From a virus: DNA of 26,822 nt. Shown one piece after another: positions 3,096 to 20,192 of the stretch (its first letter is position 1; every line of letters starts with the position of its first letter). The notes under the pieces were generated by a model that worked only from the letters and a program-made list of their open reading frames with translations, ran no database searches and was not told the origin of the DNA. The position numbers were made by a program, and so were the translations under genes. The stretch is from positions 1 to 26,822 of IMG/VR virus record IMGVR_UViG_3300045999_004732; one strand, given 5' to 3'.

Positions 3096-3135
3096 TTTGT
3101 TGTTTTTTAAGTGGTAAAATATCGTTTTGTTTGTT

Positions 3136-15172: not shown

Positions 15173-15327
15173 ACATTGACATTGAATTAATGAACGAGTT
15201 TAGCGAATGGCTTGCAAATAATAAATTTTATTTAAATTACTTTAGTGGATTATGGCAAAAACAAGCAGATAAACAAAGAACATTAAATGAAGTTTTTCAA
15301 ATGTTTTTAAAAAGTAGGGAGGCATGA
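15169..15327 (+). CDS. Hypothetical 52-residue protein
   Basis: A 52-residue helical, aromatic-rich frame begins MNIDIELMNEFSEWLANNKF. Both ends form ATGA overlaps, with the previous stop and with the ParB-like start, which is good evidence of translation despite its size. No function assigned. Confidence 0.6.
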   Translation: MNIDIELMNEFSEWLANNKFYLNYFSGLWQKQADKQRTLNEVFQMFLKSREA

Positions 15328-15833
15328 TAATCGAGAAAAAGAAAATAGCTGACTTAATCCCCGCACCGTACAACCCACGGCAAAGCACGGCAAAGCAGGA
15401 AAAGCATTTGAAAGAAAGCCTTGAAAAGTTTGGATTGGTTGAACCGATTATTTTCAATAAACAAACGGGGTACATTGTCGGCGGTCATTTCCGTGTCCGT
15501 GAACTTAAGAAACTTGGCATCAAGGAAATTGAATGTGTTATCGTTGACTTGAACGAGGCAGATGAAAAGGAGTTGAACATACGTTTAAATGCAAACACGG
15601 GTTCATGGGACTGGGACACGTTGGCAAACGATTGGGAGGTTGTTGACTTGGAGGCATGGGGATTGGATATACCGCAGTTTGACACGGTGGAGGAATTAGA
15701 AATGGAAGATTTGTCTGATAAAATAAAGTCAATGTTTAAGATTGAAGTTATTTGTAAAGATGAACAAGAGCAAGAAAAAACGTATAATAAACTAATTGAA
15801 CAGAATTACGAATGCCGACTTTTGACATTATAA
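15324..15833 (+). CDS. ParB-like nuclease domain protein
   Basis: This 169-residue protein opens with a ParB/Srx domain: IADLIPAPYNPRQS (about 8-21), LKESLEKFGLVEPIIFN (about 29-45), the GGHFRVRELKKLG motif (about 53-65) and a V-I-V-D-L segment. Then comes a region with LNIRLNANTGSWDWDTLAN. Phage proteins of this type often precede terminase or accompany DNA methylases; the domain can bind nucleotides and sometimes cut DNA. There is no plasmid-type HTH, so partitioning is unlikely. It overlaps the ABC-ATPase gene by 22 bases. Confidence 0.85.
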   Translation: MIIEKKKIADLIPAPYNPRQSTAKQEKHLKESLEKFGLVEPIIFNKQTGYIVGGHFRVRELKKLGIKEIECVIVDLNEADEKELNIRLNANTGSWDWDTLANDWEVVDLEAWGLDIPQFDTVEELEMEDLSDKIKSMFKIEVICKDEQEQEKTYNKLIEQNYECRLLTL

Positions 15834-16501
15834 AAGAAATCAAGCCTAAAGAATCTTTTCGCATTGCAAGTGTAATAGGAAGATTTGATTTACAAAGTAA
15901 CCATATAACCGAAAGGTTTAAAGGTAGTATTGATATTGATGATGATTGGCAAATTGGTTTAATAGTTGGCAAAAGCGGTACAGGAAAAACAACGATTGCA
16001 AAACAGTTGTTTCCAGAAAGTTATATTACCAATTTTGATTATAAAAGCGAAAGCATATTGGACGATATGCCTAAAGATTGTTCCATTGAAGAAATTACAA
16101 ATACTTTTAGTAGCGTTGGATTCAGCAGCCCACCGAGTTGGCTGAAGCCATATCAAGTATTGAGTAATGGAGAAAAAATGAGGGTAGATTTAGCCAAAGC
16201 GATATTGCAAAAAAATGATTTATTTGTATTTGATGAATTTACGAGCGTTGTAGATAGACAGATTGCAAAGATTGGTTCTTTTGCTACGCAGAAGGCAATC
16301 AGGAAAACAGATAAAAAGTTTATCGCTGTTTCTTGTCATTTTGATATAGAGGAATGGTTGATGCCTGATTGGGTTTTTAACACCGACACAATGACTTTTA
16401 TAAAGCATTCTGATAAAAAAAAAGACCTGACATTAAATTTGAATTATTTCAAGCAACAGATAAATCAATATGGAAAATGTTTAGTAAGTATCACTATTTA
16501 A
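15812..16501 (+). CDS. ABC-type ATPase, part 1 of a probable ATPase-GNAT frameshift fusion
   Basis: This 229-residue frame contains a complete ABC ATPase core: Walker A GKSGTGKT (53-60), signature LSNGEKMRV (117-125), Walker B LFVFDEF (137-143) with catalytic Glu142, and an H-loop SCH (His176). There is no membrane part, so it is a soluble ATPase, like the COG2401 group of ATPases fused to an acetyltransferase domain. After Asp201 the frame runs through A9 and ends with about 25 residues that do not look conserved, while the -1 frame continues into a GNAT domain. I therefore see this as the N-terminal part of a fusion protein of about 361 residues. Confidence 0.85.
   Translation: MPTFDIIKEIKPKESFRIASVIGRFDLQSNHITERFKGSIDIDDDWQIGLIVGKSGTGKTTIAKQLFPESYITNFDYKSESILDDMPKDCSIEEITNTFSSVGFSSPPSWLKPYQVLSNGEKMRVDLAKAILQKNDLFVFDEFTSVVDRQIAKIGSFATQKAIRKTDKKFIAVSCHFDIEEWLMPDWVFNTDTMTFIKHSDKKKDLTLNLNYFKQQINQYGKCLVSITI
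16415..16424 (+). other. Candidate -1 frameshift site, A9
   Basis: Nine A (16415-16423) read as AAA AAA AAA in the ATPase frame contain the slippery heptamer A AAA AAA. A -1 slip gives AGA CCT GAC and continues KRPDIKFELFQATDKSIW in phase with the GNAT frame. Transcriptional slippage, or a missed base in a run of ten A, would have the same effect. Confidence 0.65.
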
Positions 16502-16896
16502 ATTCAAGTCATAATAATGCTGCAAATGTTTTTGTCTGCATGATTAATGACGAAATAGCTGGTTTTATTAGCGTTTTACATTTTCCTCATGCTAAAGTTA
16601 AGAATATGAAAAAGGTTCATAGACTTGTTGTTCTTCCTGATTATCAAGGTTTAGGAATTGGAGGTAGAATTTTAAATGAAATTGCAAAAATATATTTTAG
16701 TCAAAAAAATAGATTTAGTATTGTAACTTCTCAGCCTAATTTAATAAACAGTTTAAAAAAATCAAAAGAATGGATTTGTAAAAGTTTTGGAAGAAATAAA
16801 CCACATAAAGGAGATTTAAAAAGAAATGTTGGCAATATTTCATTTGGTTCAGAAAATAGGATTACAGTATCTTTTGAATACAAAACAACGAAATAA
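16477..16896 (+). CDS. GNAT acetyltransferase-like domain, part 2 of the fusion
   Basis: From the ATG at 16477 this frame encodes 139 residues with a GNAT core: VHRLVVLPDYQGLGIGGRIL (47-66), in which Q-G-L-G-I-G-G is the acetyl-CoA pyrophosphate loop. The N-terminal part of the domain lies upstream of this ATG in the same frame: SIWKMFSKYHYLN matches the W-x2-F-x2-H/Y-HYL motif expected at the start of the domain. Starting at 16477 would cut this motif, so expression by -1 frameshift from the ATPase frame (entering at 16423) is more likely than an independent start. The HYL motif faintly recalls the Mom DNA-modification enzyme of phage Mu, itself GNAT-like. Confidence 0.8.
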   Translation: MFSKYHYLNSSHNNAANVFVCMINDEIAGFISVLHFPHAKVKNMKKVHRLVVLPDYQGLGIGGRILNEIAKIYFSQKNRFSIVTSQPNLINSLKKSKEWICKSFGRNKPHKGDLKRNVGNISFGSENRITVSFEYKTTK

Positions 16897-19018: not shown

Positions 19019-19311
19019 CAGATAAAGAAAAAGCGTTAATCATCATTGACTTAATCGAAAAGATTACTCAGGAAATCATTGATAAGCCAATGCAACGCAA
19101 AAGGTTATTGCAAATGCGTGGACACCTTGAAAAAGCCGTGAAGCTCACAGGGAACGGAATCAAAAGGGAATGGACACGACCGCCCAGCCTTCCGATTGTC
19201 AGTCATGCCAAAGCAGAGCCAGTACCTTTTAAACCAAGTACAACCGAAACCAATGGCGATTTATTGGCTGATAATATTCCCGTCGTAACCAAAAAAGCAA
19301 GGAGAAGATAA
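19015..19311 (+). CDS. Hypothetical protein
   Basis: This 98-residue protein has a helical first half (ALIIIDLIEKITQEIID, then KRLLQMRGHLEKAVKLTG) and a polar, proline-rich, probably disordered second half ending with KKARRR. It overlaps the preceding gene by four bases and shares its stop codon's last base with the next ATG. I recognise no family. Confidence 0.62.
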   Translation: MTDKEKALIIIDLIEKITQEIIDKPMQRKRLLQMRGHLEKAVKLTGNGIKREWTRPPSLPIVSHAKAEPVPFKPSTTETNGDLLADNIPVVTKKARRR

Positions 19312-20192
19312 TGGTAATATTTAACATAGGTAATAAGCAGATTAAGTATAATTATCCTGAGACGGCTTCGGATATTACATTGGAACAATATATCTACTTT
19401 GCAAAGTTCCTTTTGCCTGAGCATCCAAAGGTTGAATTGGAAGCCATTCAATACATGAATGAACGGGACGCGGTTTATCAAAAGATTTTACCGTATGCAA
19501 AGAAGTTGAAGGTTTATACAAAAAACGCTGAGCAAATAGACCTTGTTTACGACTTAGGCAAAATACTGCAAGAACAGGAAGTAAAGGATAATGTACGTCG
19601 TTTTCTTCCACCTTTGATTGAACAATGGAATGAACTTGATAAAGAACTTACAACACGGTTGGAAATCATGGACGAGGTCTGGGAGGCAAATGTCCGTTAT
19701 CCATACATGGCAAAGGTAGTTAACTATTTTACAGGCATTCCTTTAGATGCTTGCTTTGGCAAAGTGGCAGATAGCTTAGAATTAAAATACCTTGTTTACA
19801 TTTACGGTAAGATAATGAATGCCATTAACACGCCAACGGAAACAAAGTATAAACAACTGTACGATTTTAATGGTAAGGTTTACACCCTTCCAGAAAGGTT
19901 AATGGAAAAATCAACGCTCCTTGAATTTACAATGGCGGCTCAATATGACAAGGCAATGAACCAAGTGAAAAACGGTGAACCTGAGGGATTACTTAACATC
20001 ATGGCTGTTCTTCTTAAACCATTGAGCGAAGATTACAGCGACGAAATATTTGAGCAAAACAAAGTCGACTTTTTACAAATGTCCTTGCAAACATCATACG
20101 AGGTTGCTTTTTTTTTGACCAAGTTAAGCGAGAAATTTACCTTAGATTTGCAGACCTCTATGCTTCAAAGGGCGATGGAAAATCTCAATTAG
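19311..20192 (+). CDS. Tail assembly chaperone-like protein, zero-frame product
   Basis: This 293-residue, mostly helical protein precedes tail genes. Its end overlaps a second open frame (-1) that extends to 20389 and carries a LNEKYGWYLTIKKVAESG segment. That layout is the hallmark of tail assembly chaperones (lambda gpG/gpGT), in which a fraction of ribosomes shifts -1 to make a longer protein that recruits the tape measure protein. I recognise the arrangement, not the sequence family of the first half. It begins with a beta-rich segment (VIFNIGNKQIKYNYPE) and ends with SEKFTLDLQTSML. Slippery T9 lies 26 codons before the stop. Confidence 0.6.
   Translation: MVIFNIGNKQIKYNYPETASDITLEQYIYFAKFLLPEHPKVELEAIQYMNERDAVYQKILPYAKKLKVYTKNAEQIDLVYDLGKILQEQEVKDNVRRFLPPLIEQWNELDKELTTRLEIMDEVWEANVRYPYMAKVVNYFTGIPLDACFGKVADSLELKYLVYIYGKIMNAINTPTETKYKQLYDFNGKVYTLPERLMEKSTLLEFTMAAQYDKAMNQVKNGEPEGLLNIMAVLLKPLSEDYSDEIFEQNKVDFLQMSLQTSYEVAFFLTKLSEKFTLDLQTSMLQRAMENLN
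20108..20117 (+). other. Candidate -1 frameshift site, T9
   Basis: Nine T (20108-20116), read GCT TTT TTT TTG, contain the slippery heptamer T TTT TTT. After a -1 slip the frame continues GAC CAA GTT and stays open until TGA at 20387-20389. Confidence 0.6.

Follow-up and report, generated by a model that had tools for sequence, protein, structure and literature searches.

An ABC ATPase–GNAT gene family of phages, bacteria and archaea that is probably expressed by programmed −1 frameshifting

Two reading frames meet at a run of nine adenines

How is a protein made when its two halves lie in different reading frames? This question is raised by a virus record of 26.8 kb (the window, here meaning the whole stretch of DNA analysed), in which the frame of a soluble ABC ATPase runs into that of a GNAT acetyltransferase domain at a run of nine adenines (A9; Table 1). 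The original prediction placed the two frames in −1 register at this run and proposed a fusion of about 361 residues together with a shorter, ATPase-only form. The sequence, coordinates and frames proved to be as described, and the proposed pair of products is supported by every sequence test that we ran. We put the probability that the two frames are one gene expressed by programmed −1 frameshifting at roughly 0.9, on the basis of a conserved phase, conserved shift sites, selection on the −1 frame in the window and Streptococcus clades, and stem covariation in one subgroup.

Table 1 Features of the ATPase–GNAT locus in the window
Feature	Position	Strand	Basis or remark
ParB-like (ParB_N) protein, 169 aa, partner gene of the module	15324..15833	+	PF02195 1.1e-7; phrog_498, phrog_620
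Zero-frame ORF: soluble ABC ATPase with a 25-aa tail, predicted short product of 229 aa	15812..16501	+	ABC_tran 1.2e-9
A9 shift site, with an A_AAA_AAA heptamer in the zero frame	16415..16423	+	Same A9 in L001–L006 and L008–L010; A10 in L007
−1 frame: GNAT acetyltransferase domain, 157 aa after the shift	16423..16896	+	Acetyltransf_1 2.3e-10
Sole ATG of the GNAT frame before the domain core, an unlikely start	16477..16479	+	Residue 223 of the fusion; selection on the frame upstream
TAA stop of the predicted ATPase-only product	16499..16501	+	By-product of the GNAT-frame Y-H-Y-L codons

At 16412–16426 the zero frame reads GAT AAA AAA AAA GAC, in which the three AAA codons specify residues 202–204; the A9 run is one of only two homopolymers of nine or more nucleotides in the window. 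A −1 step at these codons leads into AGA CCT GAC and 157 more residues (KKRPDIKFELFQATDKSIWKMFSKYHYLNSS..., up to the stop ending at 16896), so that the predicted product grows from 229 to 361 aa. The ATPase frame carries a Walker A motif (GKSGTGKTT), a signature motif (LSNGE), a Walker B motif (FVFDEFTSVVD) and an H-loop (CHFD), and its start is overlapped by the ParB-like gene over 22 nt (15812–15833). The same 22-nt overlap is present in Firmicutes phages of Lactococcus, Oenococcus and Streptococcus (L101, L102, L103, L104 and L111–L114).

Both frames encode parts of one protein

In a Pfam profile search, the upstream frame matched an ABC transporter-type ATPase profile and the downstream frame an acetyltransferase profile (Table 1). 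A single family in PHROGs, phrog_11143 (357 positions, function unknown), matched both, with ATPase residues 12–220 falling on profile positions 9–215 and GNAT residues 1–156 on positions 198–349. Because the two frames occupy adjacent parts of this profile, they represent two halves of one protein; the profile itself models the fused form and is mute on how the fusion is expressed.

A structure model of a naturally fused relative (L007; pLDDT 91.5) contains an ABC domain at residues 1–201 and a GNAT domain at about 206–352. Both folds were matched, and residues 1–201 of the model align with whole nucleotide-binding domains. These boundaries place the shift in the linker, so the predicted short product would retain the whole nucleotide-binding domain. 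When the fused model was used in a fold search, it brought up generic ABC domains and GNAT proteins (Z 14–15), none of which was an informative functional relative, and a PADLOC scan gave only weak matches for the ATPase.

The −1 phase recurs across phages, bacteria and archaea

Scanning viral contigs with the ATPase yielded 80 loci. The exact A9 run and the same split were found in nine of them (L001–L006 and L008–L010), which come from nine metagenome records, and L007, the ATPase of which is 97% identical to that of the window, has A10 and a single ORF of 357 aa. Relatives at 70–92% identity are mostly single ORFs that contain CAA AAA AAA AAT, an in-frame A10. In-frame fused homologues are part of the support for the original prediction, which had proposed looking for a single-frame fusion and for conserved A runs at the junction. 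Run lengths among the relatives are A9 (−1 phase), A10 (in frame) and A11 (+1 phase).

A tblastn search of isolate phages found the ATPase in 70 records and the GNAT domain in 42, and genome and viral contigs were scanned with an ATPase alignment, the phase being called by profile HMMs. Clustering of the family at 85% ATPase identity gave 121 clusters, among which the −1 phase occurs in 36, 83 are purely fused and none is purely +1. The halves are in −1 register in Lactococcus phage P335, Oenococcus phages, Streptococcus phages, Enterococcus phage 9184 and Thomasclavelia phage TR-TP1, in all of which they are annotated as separate genes. The contig scans added this arrangement in Clostridia, Alistipes, Gilliamella, Cloacimonadota, Alicyclobacillus, Chryseobacterium, Anaerolineaceae and Bathyarchaeota; many of these host labels derive from metagenome-assembled genomes and are only as reliable as the binning. 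The −1 arrangement therefore ranges over Bacteroidota-type and Firmicutes phages, bacteria and Bathyarchaeota, and simple fusions occur in Planctomycetota, Nonomuraea and others. In an out-of-sample set of newly fetched loci (26 ATPases with less than 92% identity to the earlier set), 20 were in −1 phase, none in +1 phase and 6 fused, 5 of these with A10.

Individual loci in +1 phase do exist (L223, L232 and L251, all with A11; L132 from Bathyarchaeota; and L111, Javan420). In the three A11 loci, A11 replaces A10, the GNAT domain is in +1 phase and a stop follows immediately after the run (KKK-stop). They are not joinable by a −1 ribosomal slip, which counts against a −1 frameshift account, and represent either assembly errors or natural variants that transcriptional slippage rescues. 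The Javan420 locus of a Streptococcus phage carries an extra indel inside the GNAT frame, and this copy looks broken beyond the programmed site. In Tenacibaculum phage pT24 (L115), an in-frame TGA lies within the GNAT domain at 3119–3121; the HMM match runs on without a change of frame as far as 3343, and two genes are annotated in the record, so the TGA could reflect readthrough, an error or decay.

Shift sites are conserved and the A run is constrained

A slippery heptamer of the form X_XXY_YYZ lies in frame within the overlap of 31 of the 36 −1 clusters versus 3.5 expected (Fisher p = 2e-23), the expectation being taken from each gene's own ATPase body (43 of 704 overlap codons; 38 of 6681 body codons). 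The less demanding single-codon slip, Y_YYY, is available in 36/36 clusters, with 18.8 expected. Out of sample, the heptamer was present in 15 of 20 −1 loci and the Y_YYY slip in all 20. Each lineage has motifs of its own: Bacteroidota-type phages have AAA AAA AAA GAC; Bathyarchaeota have CGA AAA AAA GAA or ATA AAA AAA AAG; Firmicutes-type phages have T_TTT_TTG, A_AAT_TTT and GTT TTT C; and Enterococcus phage 9184 has A_AAA_AAG. The C5 run (CCCCC) of Streptococcus phages was ruled out as a slip site; it forms the 5′ arm of the downstream stem, and the TTTT that precedes it is invariant.

The run is also maintained where no shift is needed to join the domains. Fused ORFs with an xKKN motif encode it as CAA AAA AAA AAT, an exact A10, in 99/99 distinct ORFs; elsewhere in the same ORFs, lysine is AAA in 84% and glutamine CAA in 89% of cases. 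Only 7 of 56 conserved two-fold codon columns are codon-invariant and 4 of those 7 are the adjacent A10 codons, a concentration for which kinship among the sequences weakens p-values, although other columns of the same alignment vary. That the A10 is exact even in in-frame fusions indicates that the run itself is constrained, and suggests that in-frame fused genes may also use it for making the short form.

Downstream stems accompany many of the shorter sites

Most T-rich sites of the Firmicutes type are followed, a few nucleotides downstream, by a stem that has roughly six pairs or more and in many cases a z of −2 to −5. Across five diverged sequences of this type, 6 of 14 stem pairs have changed on both sides, a value reached in 0/500 shuffles, and slid versions of the same stem gave at most two double-sided changes. 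In the P335/Streptococcus stem taken alone (four sequences), covariation did not go beyond that of the shuffles. A strong stem is also missing from some lineages of the T type (L102, L202, L246 and L095, together with several loci of the out-of-sample set). Several Bathyarchaeota sites place a GC-rich stem after A_AAA_AAA, with little covariation in a stem that barely varies.

Downstream folds are stronger at runs shorter than 8 than at longer ones (p = 0.004; 0.016 with a uniform procedure). Sites with A9–A10 mostly do without a stem-loop, and a search downstream of the window's A9 found none (z −0.45; 0.83). A Shine–Dalgarno-like stimulator occurs in only 5/36 −1 lineages. As a general expectation for programmed −1 frameshift genes, neither a stimulatory structure nor a Shine–Dalgarno-like element is required at long A runs.

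Selection acts on the GNAT frame before any start codon in the window clade

Over the 25-codon overlap in the window clade, pN/pS is 0.20 in the GNAT frame versus 3.2 in the zero frame, and it falls to 0.05 in the ATPase body. The Streptococcus phages behave similarly (0.15 versus 1.54). By these ratios, purifying selection already acts on the GNAT frame of the window clade ahead of any start codon. For the A7 group of Bathyarchaeota the two frames are about equally constrained (GNAT 0.41, zero frame 0.50), so the comparison does not set the GNAT frame apart from the zero frame, and two other groups of three sequences held too few changes to weigh.

The original prediction had described the zero-frame tail of 25 residues as unconserved, which needs qualifying on two counts. 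The tail is constrained in Bathyarchaeota, and the conservation of its stop is imposed by the Y-H-Y-L codons that the GNAT frame conserves; we therefore dropped stop conservation as a sign of selection. Similar constraint on zero-frame tail and GNAT frame was seen in L125, L127, L128, L130, L134, L135, L137 and L140, from Bathyarchaeota and one Anaerolineaceae bin, and hints at either true dual coding or a constraint from RNA structure.

Independent starts for the GNAT domain are scarce. Upstream of the domain core, its frame has no ATG in 29 of the 36 −1 lineages and no ATG, GTG or TTG in 22. In the window, the ATG at 16477 would, mapped on the L007 model, fall past the first GNAT strand (210–215) and within the first helix (218–225). 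The predicted loss of the first GNAT motif is borne out by the model, in which initiation at this codon would delete the first strand and part of the first helix.

Alternative readings of the two frames

Three explanations would remove the need for frameshifting during expression. The original prediction named as its main alternative a homopolymer error in sequencing or assembly, with a true gene that has A10 and is a simple fusion, as in L007 with its 97% identical ATPase. We regard this as extremely improbable and rejected it on the strength of the nine further contigs, all with A9 and from separate metagenome records; together with the window they comprise six distinct sequences with a synonymous divergence (pS) of 0.33, and isolate phage genomes show the −1 phase also where the site is not a long homopolymer. 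Almost as hard to sustain is the idea of two separate genes, with the GNAT domain started independently or by translational coupling at ATG 16477. Such an ATG is indeed in frame 22 nt upstream of the ATPase stop, and databases annotate two genes in P335-like phages, but we rejected an independent start on the damage to the GNAT fold, the constraint on the frame upstream of the ATG and the lineages without a usable start, in a family the rest of which consists mostly of single-ORF fusions. Fusion by reinitiation or coupling could conceivably operate in lineages whose ATG falls in the WxMF motif. Phase variation, in which DNA slippage of the A run toggles the GNAT domain between virions, accounts for the alternation of A9, A10 and A11 among related lineages and is slightly less improbable, yet still unlikely: A9 is fixed across diverged members of the window clade, other lineages hold the −1 phase at short sites, some with stems, that are not expected to phase-vary, and the GNAT frame remains under selection in what would be the 'off' state. 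Programmed frameshifting is thus the reading that we retain.

What slips is a different matter. At the window's A9, both a ribosomal −1 slip and transcriptional slippage fit, and we give even odds to the latter, in which RNA polymerase adds or drops an A so that A9, A10 and A11 mRNAs coexist and are read normally; the two products would be the same. Homologous dnaX genes reportedly use either mechanism, in work by Larsen et al. from 2000. Coexistence of the three run lengths among relatives favours slippage by the polymerase, as do the codon invariance of the run even in frame and the lack of a stem-loop at the window site, and A runs longer than 7 are listed for this mechanism in PMC3711429. 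Against this, A_AAA_AAA is also an efficient ribosomal shift site, and the A7 and T4–T7 sites of the family are too short for classical slippage and occur in −1 phase only, a pattern that favours ribosomal frameshifting at those short sites. In Mg-chelatase cassettes tested in E. coli, 7, 9 and 11 A gave 10, 40 and 63% frameshifting (PMC3711429).

Evolution and predicted function

In a quick ATPase tree of 115 representatives, which has two long branches (L105 and L106) and does not tell gain from loss, the −1 state needs 14 changes, at least 5 of them forced by well supported branches. Within the Bacteroidota-type clade, genes in −1 phase alternate with A10 fusions. Of the 115 tree representatives, 56 are simple fusions that lack such a site, a point against the frameshift account in that the short form is not needed everywhere. 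We lean slightly towards a scenario in which a mix of ATPase-only and ATPase–GNAT proteins is functionally needed in a large part of the family, and the same way of setting their ratio evolved several times by different means: poly-A slippage, with the run preserved whichever frame is the default, or a slippery site with a stem-loop in Firmicutes phages and Bathyarchaeota. The evidence points to a −1 frameshift of the ABC–GNAT family that is ancient and apparently unreported; to our knowledge, few programmed frameshifts are conserved in both bacteria and archaea.

A comparable arrangement is found in dnaX (tau/gamma of DNA polymerase III), a single gene that yields a long and a short ATPase subunit through −1 frameshifting and the homologues of which use ribosomal frameshifting or poly-A transcriptional slippage. 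The ABC–GNAT family would likewise have long and short ATPase forms made by a −1 frameshift; however, dnaX encodes an unrelated AAA+ clamp loader, whereas the part added in the ABC–GNAT family is a catalytic GNAT domain, and in some homologues the fusion is fixed. The frameshift family of Mg chelatase, in which efficiency rises with A-run length, shares the poly-A overlap, fused homologues elsewhere and an occurrence in bacteria and archaea (PMC3711429, PMC5009743), but is a different enzyme; the ABC–GNAT family has several distinct slippery motifs, to which many of its Firmicutes-type members add a stem-loop.

The frame immediately preceding the ATPase is ParB-like in 31 of 35 −1 clusters and in 72 of 80 fused ones, and terminase genes follow within a few genes in several phages. 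Iyer et al. (2013) predicted that the pairing of a GNAT with an ABC ATPase makes an uncharacterised acyl modification of a DNA base, according to the passage on this system in PMC7824862, which gives Tenacibaculum phage pT24 as an example. pT24 encodes a relative of the window protein, and on domain content and phage context the window group does match the family of Iyer et al., for which DNA modification is a prediction; the ParB-like gene is the usual neighbour in the present set. That passage of the 2021 text gives the domains only, with no mention of expression by frameshifting. The literature covered, with the supplement of PMC3711429 and the full text of Iyer et al. (2013) outside its scope, contained no report of a frameshift for the ABC–GNAT family and no mention of COG2401, the group named in the original prediction; the supplementary tables of PMC3711429 list 137 ABC-transporter clusters, classed there as translational coupling.

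We propose the following model. Unshifted reading of the window gene would give the 229-aa soluble ABC ATPase, and slippage at A9, by a ribosome stepping −1 at A_AAA_AAA or an extra A from RNA polymerase, would join it to the GNAT acyltransferase in the 361-aa fusion. Each lineage would reach this outcome through its own sites: Bacteroidota-type phages through long A runs that mostly lack a stem; Firmicutes-type phages through T_TTT, A_AAT_TTT or T_TTT_TTN, in many cases followed by a stem-loop; and Bathyarchaeota through A_AAA_AAA with a GC-rich stem. Both products may then assemble as mixed ABC dimers with zero, one or two GNAT domains and, with the ParB-like partner, modify a base of the phage DNA, the function predicted by Iyer et al. 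The enzyme could serve as an ATP-gated clamp or scanner, with the dose of GNAT set by frameshifting.

If a mixture of the two forms is indeed needed, the family would provide a dnaX-like case in a DNA-modification enzyme across phages, bacteria and archaea. Its members form a natural series of sites (A7, A9, A10, A11 and T4–T9, some with a stem and some without) built around one conserved outcome, so that mechanism and ratio are open to direct test. The family also puts right the annotation of P335-like and Streptococcus phages, in which the GNAT half appears as a truncated gene of its own and the split hides a predicted DNA-modification enzyme.

A second candidate site in the window

A T9 run (GCT TTT TTT TTG) lies at 20108–20116, near the end of a 293-aa ORF (19311–20192), and the −1 frame at this point is open to 20389 (FFFDQVKREIYLRFADLYASKGD...SKSKK-stop). 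A PHROGs search of this gene gave no match. The T9 run and the same −1 frame are kept in three relatives (L277, L278 and L279), and the gene, which sits where a tail assembly chaperone would be expected, probably contains a second, independent −1 frameshift site.
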